DNA of 64,000 nt from NCBI RefSeq assembly GCF_000282115.1, contig NZ_AKJY01000085.1, positions 1 through 64,000 of the forward strand. Reading direction: 5' to 3'. This DNA comes from Chryseobacterium populi. GTDB lineage: Bacteria > Bacteroidota > Bacteroidia > Flavobacteriales > Weeksellaceae. The translations under genes and the position numbers were made by a program. How positions within the stretch are numbered: position 1 is the first letter of the stretch; each line of letters begins with the position of its first letter. Of this stretch, positions 2,922 through 24,404 are shown in pieces. The notes under the pieces were generated by a model. That model saw nothing but the letters and a program-made list of their open reading frames with translations, was not told where the DNA came from and ran no database searches.

Positions 2922-3395
2922 TTACCTATTATTTTCTTCTAAAAAATGATATAGAAAAATAACATCTCCTGTATAAGCGGGCTTAGATTGATTTCTTATC
3001 AAAAGTTTTGCTTCTACCACTACTTTTATGGTTCTCCTGAGGTCGGTGACAGATTTTACAGTTGCCTGAAGTTTTACATCACTACCTACAGTTACAGCTT
3101 GACCAAATTTAAAATTCTCAATTCCATAATTGATTTCCATTTTTACGTTTCTCACCTCAGCAATTTGTTTCCAGAGATAAGGGATCAGCGATAAAAGCAA
3201 ATAGCCATGAGCAATAGTAGATTTGAACGGGCCTTCTTTTTCAGCTCTTTCTTTATTAATATGGATCCACTGGTCATCTAAGGTTGCCTCTGCAAACCTG
3301 TTGATTTGATTCTGATCTATGGTGTGCCAGTCAGAAAACCCAACCATTTGTCCTTCGAAAGCCTTATACTCAATAAAATTGTTAATGATAATCAT
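2922..3395 (-). CDS. MaoC-type (R)-enoyl-CoA hydratase
   Basis: A hotdog-fold hydratase/dehydratase of 157 residues. The hallmark catalytic segment is present: FAEATLDDQWIHINKERA at about residues 34-51, with Asp40 and His45 five apart as in PhaJ-like hydratases, followed by STIAHGYLLLSL. Such enzymes hydrate trans-2-enoyl-CoA to (R)-3-hydroxyacyl-CoA. There is no signal peptide, so it is cytoplasmic. It is separated from the upstream cold-shock gene by an intrinsic terminator, so it is probably transcribed alone. The substrate chain length cannot be judged. Confidence 0.8.
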   Translation of the reverse strand: MIIINNFIEYKAFEGQMVGFSDWHTIDQNQINRFAEATLDDQWIHINKERAEKEGPFKSTIAHGYLLLSLIPYLWKQIAEVRNVKMEINYGIENFKFGQAVTVGSDVKLQATVKSVTDLRRTIKVVVEAKLLIRNQSKPAYTGDVIFLYHFLEENNR

Positions 3396-3437
3396 ATTTG
3401 TCTGTCTTTTTATTTAAACTGATTGGAATTCTTTCTT

Positions 3438-3465
3438 GAAAAACCTCTCACATAAATGTGAGAGG
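3438..3465 (-). terminator. Intrinsic terminator after the cold-shock gene
   Basis: Perfect 10-bp inverted repeat CCTCTCACAT (3444-3453) and ATGTGAGAGG (3456-3465). On the minus strand it is followed at once by a run of five T. It lies between the stop of the cold-shock gene and the start of the MaoC gene and should end the cold-shock transcript. Confidence 0.75.
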
Positions 3466-3613
3466 CAAATGAACATAATGGAAAATAAAAAGTGATTTAC
3501 ATCAATGTTCTTTCAAACAATATTTCAAAGGTTACTGGACTTTGAATTGTAAAAAAATATAATACTGAAATTGAAAATAATTTTTATTTCAAACAGATGA
3601 TATTAAAGTTTTA

Positions 3614-19256: not shown

Positions 19257-20309
19257 ATGAAAAAATTATTGATTGCTTTAGGAATGTTTAATGCATTCTT
19301 TATTTCAGCTCAAGTAGGGATTAATACAGACAAACCAAATGCAGCCTTAGACATTGTATCAGATAAAAGCGGAATCTTAATTCCCAGAATGACAGCCGTC
19401 CAAATAGAACAAATCAATACACCCACTGAAGGAGAGCTAATTTTCAGTACAACGAATACAGGCAGTGTAGTCAATACTATCGGATTTTGGTATTTTGATG
19501 GCATTGCCTGGAATCCTATTACCGCTAATAATTCTGTGGGTGAAAATATTTATAACTCTGACGGTATCCTTGCTGGCAATAGAATTGTCAGTCTTAACAA
19601 TCATGATCTGAATATTGGACCCGATAAACTGTTTATATCCGGAAGTACAGGTAATATTGGCATTAACACTAATCTTCCAACAGAAAAATTAGATATTAAC
19701 GGAGGAATGAGAATCCGTAGCCTCTCTAAAGGAAATGTGATAACCACAGGAGACGGTGTATTGTCTTTTGATACCGGGCTGATTAATCATTATGGAGATA
19801 TCCAATATTCTTATCTTCCGGCAGATCATGAAGGCTGGTATCTACTTAATGGAAGGGCACTTACTACATTACCTGCAAGTGTTCAATCAAGGGCTACTAC
19901 TCTTGGAATTGCAGGAAACCTTCCCAATGCTGCAGGAAGGTATATTAAACAGGGAACCCCAGGAACACTAAGCGGAGCCACGAGTGTAGTTCTTTCCCAA
20001 GCCAACTTACCAAATTTTGTTCTTAGCGGAAACACAACAAATTTGTCTCATAGTCATCCTCTGGTAAGCCCAGGTAATGCCCAGGTAAGAGGAACAGATA
20101 TTCTGCAAACCGTTAATGGTAATGCTAATTCATGGCAATTGGCGGGTGGGGCAATACCGGGATCAACACTTTCCGAAGGGACTTATACAAGCTCTTCATC
20201 GGGAGCACACAATCACACCGTAACCATACCTACAGGAGGAACCGGAGCTGCTATTGCACTCACTCCCGATTACGTACAGTTTAATTACTTTATTTATTTA
20301 GGAATTTAA
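19257..20309 (+). CDS. Secreted tail-fibre/collar-like protein 1
   Basis: 350 residues. Signal peptide to about residue 18 (FFISAQ). Then a segment VGINTDKPNAALDIVSDKSG and ILIPRMTAVQ, a motif frequent at the N-terminus of Flavobacteriia surface proteins, followed by a beta-rich repeat region. The C-terminal half resembles phage tail collar or microcystin-dependent-type domains: DHEGWYLLNGRALTTLP, PNAAGRYIKQG, and a glycine/histidine-rich end (HSHPL and GAHNHTVTIPTGGTG) finishing in YFIYLG. Probably a trimeric surface fibre. First of three tandem paralogues, 10 and 11 bp apart, clearly one operon. Role unknown; adhesion is a guess. Confidence 0.7.
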   Translation: MKKLLIALGMFNAFFISAQVGINTDKPNAALDIVSDKSGILIPRMTAVQIEQINTPTEGELIFSTTNTGSVVNTIGFWYFDGIAWNPITANNSVGENIYNSDGILAGNRIVSLNNHDLNIGPDKLFISGSTGNIGINTNLPTEKLDINGGMRIRSLSKGNVITTGDGVLSFDTGLINHYGDIQYSYLPADHEGWYLLNGRALTTLPASVQSRATTLGIAGNLPNAAGRYIKQGTPGTLSGATSVVLSQANLPNFVLSGNTTNLSHSHPLVSPGNAQVRGTDILQTVNGNANSWQLAGGAIPGSTLSEGTYTSSSSGAHNHTVTIPTGGTGAAIALTPDYVQFNYFIYLGI

Positions 20310-20319
20310 AAATTAAATT

Positions 20320-21357
20320 ATGTTACATAAAACTACGATTAAAATTATATCCATACTCAATCTTCTTTTTTTTCTTCCTATTGATGCACAGCGTGCAGGT
20401 ATTGGTACAGCCAATCCTAATGCAGCATTAGATGTCAGTTCCACAACACAGGGCATACTCATCCCCAGAATGACTGCCCTACAGGCAGAAGCCATCACAA
20501 ACCCCATTACAGGAGAACTGGTTTATGCAATTACAAACAATGGTGCTATCATTAATAAAACAGGTTTCTGGTATTATGACAACACTGTATGGCGTCCCTT
20601 TGGAGGCAGTTCCCAGCCAATTATTAATATCTACAATAGTAATGGTACTTTGACTTCCAACCGCACTGTAACAATGAACGGGCGCAATTTATCATTTGAT
20701 ACAGACAAGCTCTCTATTCATTCTGTGGAACGAAAAATAGGAATAGGAAACAATATTCCCTCATATACAGTTGATGTAAATGGGAATATCCGCGTCAGAA
20801 ATCTTACCGGTGGAAATGTAAAGGCCCTCTCAGATGGAACTTTATCTATAGGGCCTAAAGTAGCTTACGGCACCGTTAAAGAATCTCTGCGTTCAGATGA
20901 CCACAACGGCTGGTATAAGCTGAACGGCCGGGCTATCAGTACACTTCCTGCTATTGCACAAAGCAATGCTTCAGCAATAGGACTCAGCGGCACACTGGTG
21001 AATACCAATGGCAGGTTGATGAAACAAGGAGTACCGTTCACTACAGGAGGCTCTGATACAACTACATTGATCAGAGCTAATCTTCCTAATGTTAATTTAA
21101 CAGGAGTAACATCAACAGCAGCAGCACATACTCATTCATTAACTGCCGGCGGTTACAATTTTGCTCAAAATGCAGCCGGTAATGCTTATGTGTTTAGAGC
21201 AGGAAGGGGAACAGTTTCCGGAACTACAGCTATAACTCTTCCCGCTTCTGGTGCGCACAGTCATGTTGGAACCGTTAATACGGGCGGAAGCGGTACTCCC
21301 TTTGCTATTGTACCGAAAAACATATCATACAGTTATTTTATCTACCTAGGACAATAA
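20320..21357 (+). CDS. Secreted tail-fibre/collar-like protein 2
   Basis: 345 residues, paralogue of the gene before it. Signal peptide ends near PIDAQ. It shares GIGTANPNAALDVSS plus GILIPRMTALQ, the GFWYYDNTVWRPF block, then the collar-like part DDHNGWYKLNGRAISTLP and a C-terminal His/Gly-rich end (AAHTHSL, GAHSHVGTVNTGGSG) closing in YFIYLGQ. The middle is clearly diverged from its neighbours, while both ends are conserved, the pattern expected for a fibre with variable shaft or tip. Start 10 bp after the previous stop. Confidence 0.7.
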   Translation: MLHKTTIKIISILNLLFFLPIDAQRAGIGTANPNAALDVSSTTQGILIPRMTALQAEAITNPITGELVYAITNNGAIINKTGFWYYDNTVWRPFGGSSQPIINIYNSNGTLTSNRTVTMNGRNLSFDTDKLSIHSVERKIGIGNNIPSYTVDVNGNIRVRNLTGGNVKALSDGTLSIGPKVAYGTVKESLRSDDHNGWYKLNGRAISTLPAIAQSNASAIGLSGTLVNTNGRLMKQGVPFTTGGSDTTTLIRANLPNVNLTGVTSTAAAHTHSLTAGGYNFAQNAAGNAYVFRAGRGTVSGTTAITLPASGAHSHVGTVNTGGSGTPFAIVPKNISYSYFIYLGQ

Positions 21358-21368
21358 AAATTAAATCA

Positions 21369-22427
21369 ATGAAAAGAACAATTACAATATTTATTTTCTC
21401 TTTAGGGCTACCTGTACCTTCTCTGGCACAAAAGTCATTAGTAGGAATAGGGACAGCTAATCCTCAAGTCGTGTTGGATGTAGTTTCCACTAATCATGGA
21501 ATCTTGATCCCCCGTCAGACAGCTTTTCAGATTGAAAATATGCAAAGTCCCGATGAATCAGAGCTGGCTTATTCATTAACAGATAATGGAATTATAATCA
21601 CCAGAAAAGGGTTTTGGTATTTTCATGCAGGAACCTGGTTCCCTCTTACAGGAAACAGTAGTAATAATGAAAACATTTATACTGTAAATGGGACTTTAAT
21701 CTCAAACCGGCAAGTTAGTCAAGATGGAAAACAACTTAATATAGGTCCTGGACTTCTTTACCTGGATGGAGCCACCTCAGCTACAGGAATACTTACTTCC
21801 TCTCCCACTCAGACAATTGATGTAGATGGCAATGTCAGAATTCAAACCTTTAACAAAGTAGCTGGTGTTATGTCCAATGCACAGGGTGTACTTATGAATA
21901 ATTCTGACTTTTTTGAAATAGGAGACGTAAAACCTTCATTTGTTACATCAGACCATGATGGATGGTATCTGCTAGACGGAAGAAATATCACTACTCTCCC
22001 GCAAGCAGCCCAGAATAATGCATCAAGTATACTAGGAATAACCACCTTGCTACCTAATGCGGCAGGCAGCTATTCCATGGGAACTACGGCAGCCACCGGT
22101 TCCATTTCAGGAAGCAGTACGGCAACTCTCACCAGGGCAAATCTGCCTAATGTAAACCTCAACTATACAACAGATGCGGAAGCGGGCCACTCCCACACTA
22201 TGACCTATCAAAGGATCAGGACTACTACCGCATTTGGTGGTGGAAATAATATCCATGTATACTGGCTGGCAGGAACAATTGTTGGAGGTGGAGGACTTTA
22301 TAATATAAGTTCAACAACAATCGGGCATAGTCATACCTACACCGTAAACTCCGGAGGAACTGCAGCCCCTATAAACATTCAGCCGGCAGCATTAAATGCT
22401 AATTACTTTGTGTATTTAGGACAATAA
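21369..22427 (+). CDS. Secreted tail-fibre/collar-like protein 3
   Basis: 352 residues, third paralogue. Signal peptide ends near SLAQ. It has the GIGTANPQVVLDVVS and GILIPRQTAFQ block, a FWYFHAGTWFPL segment, SDHDGWYLLDGRNITTLP, PNAAGSYSMG and a His-rich end (AGHSHTMTY, GHSHTYTVNSGG) closing in YFVYLGQ. It ends the operon; no terminator was seen directly after the stop. All three have the same architecture, so duplication within the locus is the simplest history. Confidence 0.7.
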   Translation: MKRTITIFIFSLGLPVPSLAQKSLVGIGTANPQVVLDVVSTNHGILIPRQTAFQIENMQSPDESELAYSLTDNGIIITRKGFWYFHAGTWFPLTGNSSNNENIYTVNGTLISNRQVSQDGKQLNIGPGLLYLDGATSATGILTSSPTQTIDVDGNVRIQTFNKVAGVMSNAQGVLMNNSDFFEIGDVKPSFVTSDHDGWYLLDGRNITTLPQAAQNNASSILGITTLLPNAAGSYSMGTTAATGSISGSSTATLTRANLPNVNLNYTTDAEAGHSHTMTYQRIRTTTAFGGGNNIHVYWLAGTIVGGGGLYNISSTTIGHSHTYTVNSGGTAAPINIQPAALNANYFVYLGQ

Positions 22428-22790: not shown

Positions 22791-23333
22791 TCAGCAGCCG
22801 CCTTTACGGTGGATACGCCTATAAATTATTTTACCATCTCGCTCTACATAATCGCCCGGTACTATTGGATATGAATACTTGGGAGCGTACATTACACTAT
22901 GGCTTCTTATAATTATTTTGTCGTTCACTTTCAGGCGATGCAATTGCTGAAATTCATTAGAGTTTTCCAGTCCAAAACTGAGAATATAATCTTCACCATT
23001 AATCCTGACCATCACTCCGAAACCTAATCGTGAGCCTGGCGGAAGAGAAAGAGAGCTTACATTAGCTTCCATATTAGTAAAATCCCTTACCTGATTCCTT
23101 ATTTTAGCAGCACCATCAAGCACTTTTTTACCTTTCGGAGACGCTTTCCATTTGTTGAACTTTATACCATCAGGGGAAGCTTCCCATTTTTTCAATGCGG
23201 CTTTCATTTCAGCAGCAGAGAGTGTCTTTCGGGTTGACTTTTTAGAAGTTTCGTTTTTGATTTCGTAATTCGCAAATACTAGTCCGCTTACCACAAACAG
23301 TGGCAAAATCAGTACATAAATGATTTTTTTCAT
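22791..23333 (-). CDS. Small secreted protein of unknown function
   Basis: 180 residues. N-terminal signal peptide (VLILPLFVVSGLVFA), then a lysine-rich stalk containing two copies of a short repeat, KWEASPDGIKF and KWKASPKGKKV, near residues 49-71. The C-terminal part (about 90-180) is a beta-rich domain with PPGSRLGFGVMVRINGEDY and LHRLKVNDKIIIRSHSVM, and it ends in a Gly-Gly-Cys. I do not recognise the family. It is divergent from a membrane-bound regulator with a 180-bp shared promoter region, which suggests a functional link. Confidence 0.55.
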   Translation of the reverse strand: MKKIIYVLILPLFVVSGLVFANYEIKNETSKKSTRKTLSAAEMKAALKKWEASPDGIKFNKWKASPKGKKVLDGAAKIRNQVRDFTNMEANVSSLSLPPGSRLGFGVMVRINGEDYILSFGLENSNEFQQLHRLKVNDKIIIRSHSVMYAPKYSYPIVPGDYVERDGKIIYRRIHRKGGC

Positions 23334-23513
23334 ATTTTTATAAATTTAATTAACATAGATTTATTTCCTGAAAATCAGATTCGTTTAAGACATTTCTTTT
23401 GTCTTTTCGTATCTTTTTAAAGCTGATGCAACAAAAATACTTTGATAATGTGCAGACGGAGGAACCTGGATTGTAAATAATAGTGTAACCTTTGTAAATA
23501 AATTGTAAATAGT

Positions 23514-24404
23514 ATGTCTGAAACCCGAAATCTCCTCTCCGGGAAACGCAAATATCTGTGCGGAGTAATATTACTCTTGTTTATCTCTGTGATCTGCGTG
23601 GCGTTCAGTATGACCGGCAGTGATGATTTTGATATCGCCAGGAGAGAAATTTTGCTTCGGAGGATAGGAGATGAACTACTCAGGCAGTCAGGCGACAGTA
23701 AATCAAGAGTGCTTCCGGTAAAAAAAATCGCCGAAAATGAATACCAGATCAGGTTTCAGAATGAGCTTACCTTTAAACCGGACTCGCTGGTGAATACTAC
23801 CCGGCATTTGTTGTCCAAAGACCCTCTCACACGTGATTATGTAGTTAATGTTCTGAACTGTGACAACTCCAGTGTGGTCTATGGATACGCTATATCCAGC
23901 AATAAAAAAGATGATATTATAGCCTGCCGAGGAAGAGTACAACCCAAAGGATGCTATATGGTCAACATCAAATTTAAATCAACCGGAATAAATACAGCAA
24001 AGAATGGTTATGTTGTGGGTATCCTGTCATTTTTGGCATTTGTTGGTTTCATTTTTCTGAGATCAGGTAAACCGCGAAGAGCCATGCCTGGTGATCAAAA
24101 CACTAATATTTTAACGTTTGGATCAGTCTTGTTTAATGTGCAGGAACAACAACTGGTAATAAATAAAAACACCATAGACCTGACCGGAACAGAAACACGC
24201 CTGCTACTCATTTTCGCGTTGTCTCCTAACCAAACTATAGAGAGAAGCCGGCTGCAAAAAGAGATATGGGAAGATGAAGGTGTTATTGTGGGGCGCAGCC
24301 TGGATATGTTTATATCAAAACTTAGAAAAAAACTGGAATTTGATCCGAATATCAAAATTGTTGTTATCCGCGGAAAAGGATATAAGCTTGAGATTAGCTC
24401 TTAA
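23514..24404 (+). CDS. Membrane-anchored winged-helix regulator with periplasmic domain
   Basis: 296 residues with two membrane segments (about 13-33 and 163-180) enclosing a periplasmic domain of roughly 130 residues that has two or three cysteines (LNCDNSS, IACRGRV, KGCYMV), followed by a cytoplasmic OmpR/PhoB-type winged helix at about 200-296 (TETRLLLIFALSPNQTIERS, GRSLDMFISKLRKKL, IRGKGYKL). No receiver domain is present, so it is a one-component, ToxR-like sensor, but with the DNA-binding domain at the C-terminus. Similar Flavobacteriia proteins exist, as far as I know without a described signal. It likely controls the divergent secreted-protein gene. Confidence 0.75.
   Translation: MSETRNLLSGKRKYLCGVILLLFISVICVAFSMTGSDDFDIARREILLRRIGDELLRQSGDSKSRVLPVKKIAENEYQIRFQNELTFKPDSLVNTTRHLLSKDPLTRDYVVNVLNCDNSSVVYGYAISSNKKDDIIACRGRVQPKGCYMVNIKFKSTGINTAKNGYVVGILSFLAFVGFIFLRSGKPRRAMPGDQNTNILTFGSVLFNVQEQQLVINKNTIDLTGTETRLLLIFALSPNQTIERSRLQKEIWEDEGVIVGRSLDMFISKLRKKLEFDPNIKIVVIRGKGYKLEISS

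Follow-up and report, generated by a model that had tools for sequence, protein, structure and literature searches.

A divergent gene pair in the Chryseobacterium populi window, by which we mean the whole 64,000-nucleotide stretch of DNA analysed, belongs on sequence comparison to a wider regulator module. In this module a conserved membrane-anchored winged-helix regulator is encoded beside a partner from at least eight exchangeable families, and many of the partners end in a cysteine. We propose that the membrane-anchored regulator and its exchangeable periplasmic partner give thiol feedback, a proposal that we regard, taken as a whole, as evenly poised between right and wrong. Its separate steps differ in strength and are graded where they are discussed.

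The two ORFs lie at 22791-23333 and 23514-24404 and are divergent, with start codons 180 bp apart (23334-23513). The first-pass annotation had described a divergent pair of a secreted protein and a membrane winged-helix regulator, and both ORFs and the 180-bp spacer were recovered. Across the Bacteroidota, the partner at this locus, which we call SEC, is 52-79% identical and the regulator 30-85%. With dN/dS values of about 0.35 for the partner and about 0.14 for the regulator, both ORFs are therefore real and not chance ORFs. Purifying selection acts on both genes. The source genome assembly is 4.48 Mb and the genus is large. Two key features fell outside the earlier annotation: an array of TGTAA[AC] repeats and an invariant cysteine as the last residue of SEC. 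Further along the window, at 19257-22427, are three tandem paralogous ORFs for secreted proteins of 350, 345 and 352 aa. They have in common a 'DHxGWYxLxGRxxTTLP' segment that is reminiscent of phage tail-collar/fibre proteins and has no Pfam match.

The regulator has a periplasmic domain between two membrane helices and a DNA-binding domain at its C-terminus, as follows.

23514-24404, plus strand: membrane-anchored winged-helix regulator, 296 aa
23556-23612, plus strand: transmembrane helix 1, residues ~15-33 by hydropathy (model helix 12-32)
23613-23996, plus strand: sensor domain in the periplasm, residues 34-161, apparently akin to that of a histidine kinase
24003-24059, plus strand: transmembrane helix 2, residues ~164-182, by hydropathy and model
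24108-24401, plus strand: OmpR/PhoB-type winged-helix DNA-binding domain, residues 199-296, by Trans_reg_C and structure

Trans_reg_C matches residues 219-292 with an E-value of 1.5e-16, and the winged helix matches the DNA-binding domains of SaeR, ToxR and CadC in structure with Z of 13-14. Domain E-value and fold Z thus both place it among the OmpR/PhoB winged helices (Trans_reg_C). Domain-family searches of the regulator found no kinase or receiver domain. With a DNA-binding domain and transmembrane helices in one chain, and neither kinase nor receiver, the protein is a transmembrane one-component regulator. The Trans_reg_C match, hydropathy and structure bear out the earlier reading of it as a periplasmic domain between two membrane helices followed by an OmpR-type winged helix.

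The sensor domain matched no Pfam family above the cut-off and no solved relative by sequence. In the structure search with the regulator the matches listed were filled by the winged helix and barely covered the sensor part. The domain is probably related to the sensor of a histidine kinase in the same genome, since alignment with the periplasmic domain of this kinase by hhalign gave an E-value of 2.8e-5 and a probability of 74. The sensor profile also hits kinase-size ORFs of other genomes, with E-values of 1e-7 to 1e-8. The kinase of the same genome (L137:1086-3032; C111), with its apparently sensor-related periplasmic domain, is followed by an OmpR-type response regulator. The simplest origin of the regulator is probably a fusion of a kinase sensor and its two transmembrane helices to the winged helix of a response regulator, skipping kinase and receiver.

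The divergent neighbour encodes SEC, with the following features.

22791-23333, minus strand: SEC gene, 180 aa, signal peptide at about residues 1-21
23121-23189, minus strand: pair of KWxASPxGxK units at residues 49-71, with a helical-hairpin prediction
22818-23072, minus strand: predicted OB-fold domain, residues 88-172 (AlphaFold2 pLDDT mostly >90)
22794-22796, minus strand: codon of the invariant last residue, C180 (...RKGGC)

An N-terminal signal and two KWxASPxGxK units, which in the window read KKWEASPDGIKFN and KWKASPKGKKV, had already been assigned to this product and are present. W50, G56, W62, S65 and G68 are invariant within the units. The best structure matches of the SEC model were PriB/SSB-type OB folds; their Z of at most 7.7 points to a shared arrangement only. 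No Pfam, NCBIfam or PADLOC family matched SEC above the cut-off, and no solved structure was found by sequence with a convincing E-value. Two candidate assignments were rejected. A ComEA-like match of SEC (E 0.14, with 11.9 bits where the cut-off is 98) is chance, and a match to Tox-HDC that had suggested a toxin (E 0.013) is below the cut-off, absent from most members and fits chance.

Between the two genes lie a candidate operator and a promoter element for SEC.

23472-23509, no strand: operator-like array of four units, TGTAAA (23472-23477), TGTAAC (23484-23489), TGTAAA (23493-23498) and TGTAAA (23504-23509)
23432-23439, minus strand: Bacteroidota-type -7 promoter match TATTTTTG for SEC, 32 bp from the proximal repeat

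OmpR/PhoB-type winged helices normally target direct repeats with a period of 10-11 bp. The window repeats are spaced by 12, 9 and 11 bp, and this 9-12 bp spacing agrees with a period of about 10-11 bp and marks the array as a candidate site. It ends 4 bp before the ATG of the regulator and starts 138 bp before the start codon of SEC. To count as positive, a gene had to have at least two TGTAA[AC] units at 9-12 or 20-23 bp spacing within 140 bp upstream. Such repeats precede 154 of 171 regulators compared with 4 of 478 control genes in the same flanks, and three of these four are themselves regulator or SEC genes. Each of 10 shuffles gave 0/94. The repeats persist down to about 30% regulator identity. 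TAnnTTTG is the Bacteroidota-type -7 element; an exact copy within 60 bp was found at 53 of 141 loci versus 3 in shuffles. It is 31-32 bp from the proximal repeat in 38 of the 53, and most of the 53 have it at 31-32 or 42-43 bp.

The full repeat element occurs once in the genome. A wide regulon in the same genome was rejected, as a loose three-repeat pattern gave 16 sites versus 8 in the reversed control; the known site is the only one free of mismatches, and no further target is supported. An inverted repeat, TATCAAAG...CTTTGATA, is present in many relatives. It is degenerate in the window and was set aside.

The best evidence that the regulator most likely acts on the SEC promoter comes from SEC genes elsewhere in a genome. 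SEC is encoded in 39 genomes of a Chitinophagaceae-like sample, in 13 of them away from the regulator, and four of the 13 have no regulator at E<=1e-15. The distant SEC genes have 3-4 upstream repeats in all nine genomes with a regulator elsewhere, while two repeats were found in none of the four regulator-less genomes (Fisher 0.0014). At seven of the nine the repeats are near the window distances (~-175, -165, -156, -144), and at two they are shifted (L251, L255). Because the repeats track the presence of the regulator and not its adjacency, the regulator most likely controls SEC, also in trans. We hold it highly probable that the regulator controls its partner through the TGTAA[AC] repeats. 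Upstream of one orphan SEC gene (L258, SEC at 3032-3535), the opposite strand reads like a regulator gene's 3' end. It is as if the regulator had been lost there, and none was found in that genome.

The two genes had been taken for a sensor and its effector or ligand, with co-occurrence named as a check. Among 60 sampled genomes of the genus this check came out strictly, with regulator and SEC in the same five genomes, that of the window included, and always adjacent. The Chryseobacterium locus L098 has the same regulator-SEC pair. In the wider sample either gene occurs without the other. SEC is within reach at 40 of 90 loci with a close regulator, about half of these regulators have another secreted protein, and the 13 of 39 genomes with a distant SEC add to the separation. 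As separation is frequent, the idea of a dedicated, exclusive pair is refuted. The regulatory link to the divergent neighbour stands and, given operator-like repeats that are also found at distant SEC genes, is very probable.

Outside the genus, regulators of up to 85% identity are encoded in Mucilaginibacter, Chitinophaga, Pedobacter, Flavobacterium and others. At 30-45% identity, 27 genomes among 395 sampled from the phylum have the regulator (three of them only via kinase-sized ORFs or weaker), as do 65 of 244 Chitinophagaceae-like genomes and 28 of 296 in the order. High identity across families, together with patchiness within the genus, suggests horizontal transfer of the regulator module.

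We also examined which partners take the divergent place of SEC. They include a Reg_prop propeller, a BNR/Sortilin-like propeller, YceI, a beta-lactamase-like protein and others, with Pfam matches to YceI, Reg_prop and BNR/Sortilin and a TonB_C match below the cut-off. On a FastTree tree of 171 distinct loci the partner class changes at least 45 times, compared with 83-95 times when labels are shuffled. Partners thus partly track the regulator tree, yet were swapped many times. The first residues behind the shared promoter are often identical (MKNKRN...) with differing protein bodies, and at some SEC loci an MKNK stretch is still present in frame ahead of the SEC start. A chimera at L266 (1496-2779), which joins the SEC signal peptide to a BNR-type body with NHC as its end, is direct evidence for swapping behind the signal peptide. 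Partner classes stand in tandem behind one regulator at L245, L178, L193, L195, L196, L055, L264 and L265, for example MKNK190 with SEC and Reg_prop, or BNR followed by SEC. This looks like an accumulation of partner genes beside the promoter. At L184 two regulators of the family share one neighbourhood, one by SEC and the other by a beta-lactamase-like gene. Two distant regulators (L222, L221) have Cys-ending secreted neighbours upstream in the same orientation, unlike the divergent layout.

The periplasmic domain of the regulator has three cysteines.

23859-23861, plus strand: C116, paired with C147 by co-variation
23925-23927, plus strand: C138, invariant and partnerless
23952-23954, plus strand: C147, paired with C116 by co-variation

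C138 is kept in all 108 aligned regulators. At positions 116 and 147 both residues are Cys in 90 of these and neither is in 18, with one alone in none. To be kept or lost together is the pattern of a disulfide, which leaves C138 as the single invariant periplasmic Cys. A role for thiols in the periplasmic domain is plausible.

On the partner side, a terminal Cys is found in 32 of 32 aligned SEC proteins (alignment A2). Counted across loci, which are phylogenetically non-independent, the last residue is Cys in 108 of 184 classified partners versus 7 of 461 other ORFs, two of the seven being SEC. Six of the eight partner families include members ending in Cys. These are nearly all members in four classes (47 of 48 SEC in the 171-locus set, 36 of 38 BNR, 7 of 7 TonB_C-like and 4 of 4 LP111 lipoprotein-like) and a minority in Reg_prop (7 of 45) and YceI (7 of 31). 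The beta-lactamase-like proteins (0 of 8) and MKNK190 (0 of 3) have none. SEC and BNR dominate the counts and have similar tails (VIYxxPxKGC), so the Cys tail may have arisen independently fewer times than there are families; the tails of TonB_C-like, LP111, YceI and Reg_prop proteins look separate.

In our proposal the regulator would bind the repeats at 23472-23509 from the membrane. They overlap with the regulator's 5' region, and relative to the divergent promoter they occupy about -44 to -82. As this is the usual place of an OmpR/PhoB-type activator, activation of the partner is the most likely outcome, with the regulator's own expression limited. The regulator would activate the partner gene and restrain its own, and we consider activation of the partner, as opposed to repression, fairly probable. 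Once exported, the partner may report back to the sensor, which we rate just short of an even call. A thiol contact between its C-terminal Cys and C138, probably a mixed disulfide, would be made or broken, and C116-C147 would only stabilise the sensor fold. This chemistry between C138 and the terminal Cys is, to us, doubtful. Contact through a conserved tail rather than a conserved fold would explain replacement among unrelated secreted proteins. In its fullest form the regulator would be thiol-gated and covalent, taking a secreted protein of any fold as input by way of a Cys tag at the C-terminus, disulfide-bonded to C138. We think this form somewhat unlikely, and the literature searched held no case of tail-addressed, fold-independent signalling.

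Feedback from the partner has to be weighed against control in one direction only. The regulator would then sense a fixed envelope signal, with C138 as a redox or metal ligand, and switch on the adjacent effector. The terminal Cys would work for the effector itself, in anchoring, dimer formation or metal or thiol chemistry, with no contact to the regulator. C138 is invariant even beside partners with no terminal Cys (38 of 45 Reg_prop, 24 of 31 YceI and 8 of 8 beta-lactamase), so it must have an additional role independent of the tail, in line with one-way control. The terminal Cys kept by the four SEC copies in regulator-less genomes argues the same way, and effectors of unrelated folds behind one promoter fit a locus with a fixed signal and a variable response. 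Unexplained by one-way control is the convergence on a Cys end of members of six unrelated families that have only the promoter in common, at the frequencies given above. We judge one-way control possible but tentative.

Two further explanations would change what the repeats or the partner do. The regulator may be a repressor and the partner a periplasmic inducer or anti-repressor, in which case the repeats would keep both genes blocked and the partner or a ligand would lift the block. The end of the array 4 bp before the regulator ATG is consistent with this, and strong conservation over the 5' region of the regulator suggests autorepression. The repeats are, however, 31-32 or 42-43 bp upstream of the partner -7 element, and this constant helical phase is typical of OmpR-type activation. 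Repression of both genes is improbable. A mobile, polymorphic conflict or competition cassette, made up of a secreted toxin-like protein and a control gene, would account for the patchiness in the genus (5 of 60), the regulator identity of up to 85% across families and the swapping of partners. No immunity gene or recombinase was noticed, the known partner families YceI, Reg_prop and TonB_C-like are no toxins, and regulator and SEC are both under purifying selection. The locus also had no match to a PADLOC defence family, an absence on which a defence system was rejected. A conflict cassette is highly improbable. We retain feedback from an exchangeable partner as the working proposal.

If this wiring holds, a widespread Bacteroidota regulator family gains its DNA site and its target genes together, and a set of orphan secreted proteins (the new OB-fold family, BNR, Reg_prop, YceI and TonB_C-like) gets a common context. 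If in addition the terminal Cys addresses the sensor, unrelated proteins would be pluggable into one receptor through a single C-terminal residue. Were the tail a tag of this kind, evolution could connect new periplasmic sensors or effectors to a single switch. The regulator family, its repeats and the C-terminal-Cys partners are undescribed in the literature searched, in which subscription journals are largely absent.

Among known systems, the co-component systems VtrA/VtrC and ToxR/ToxS also combine a membrane-tethered wHTH regulator with an adjacently encoded periplasmic partner (PMC9214523). A disulfide of the sensor domain, here a predicted one, and a partner that changes fast are further points of likeness. 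In VtrA and ToxR the wHTH is N-terminal, followed by one transmembrane helix and a C-terminal periplasmic domain (PMC9214523), whereas the window regulator has the reverse order and two helices and so departs from the ToxR/CadC-like layout of N-terminal wHTH and single helix. Partners of the VtrC/ToxS type are downstream in the same orientation, membrane-tethered and lipocalin-like (PMC9214523); here the partner is divergent, has a signal peptide and comes from at least eight families. Co-component systems such as VtrA/VtrC are also marked by periplasmic domains that pair as an obligate heterodimer. The co-component arrangement, with the partner directly downstream in the same orientation, is thus not found at this locus. 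SEC itself has only an N-terminal signal, is modelled as helices and an OB-like barrel, and gave no lipocalin-like fold among the matches listed.

By the usage of PMC10269533, the window regulator counts as a transmembrane transcription regulator. Like CadC-type and other transmembrane regulators, which are enriched in Bacteroidota (PMC5430869, PMC10269533), it is a single membrane protein with both a sensor and a DNA-binding domain. Unlike CadC (PMC5430869), it has a reversed domain order, an unnamed sensor domain and a conserved secreted partner gene, often with a terminal Cys. Its winged helix is nearest to RprY (E 3e-22) and its sensor is probably related to that of the kinase in the same genome, but in contrast to the two-component system RprX/RprY it lacks kinase and receiver, and C138 is missing from that kinase. 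The YceI, Reg_prop, BNR/Sortilin and TonB_C families provide alternative partners elsewhere, and SEC of the window matches none of them. At regulator loci, members of the partner families share one operator-like array and many have a C-terminal Cys. We see the wider module as a variation on a known kind of regulator, and the recurrent C-terminal Cys is its surprising feature.
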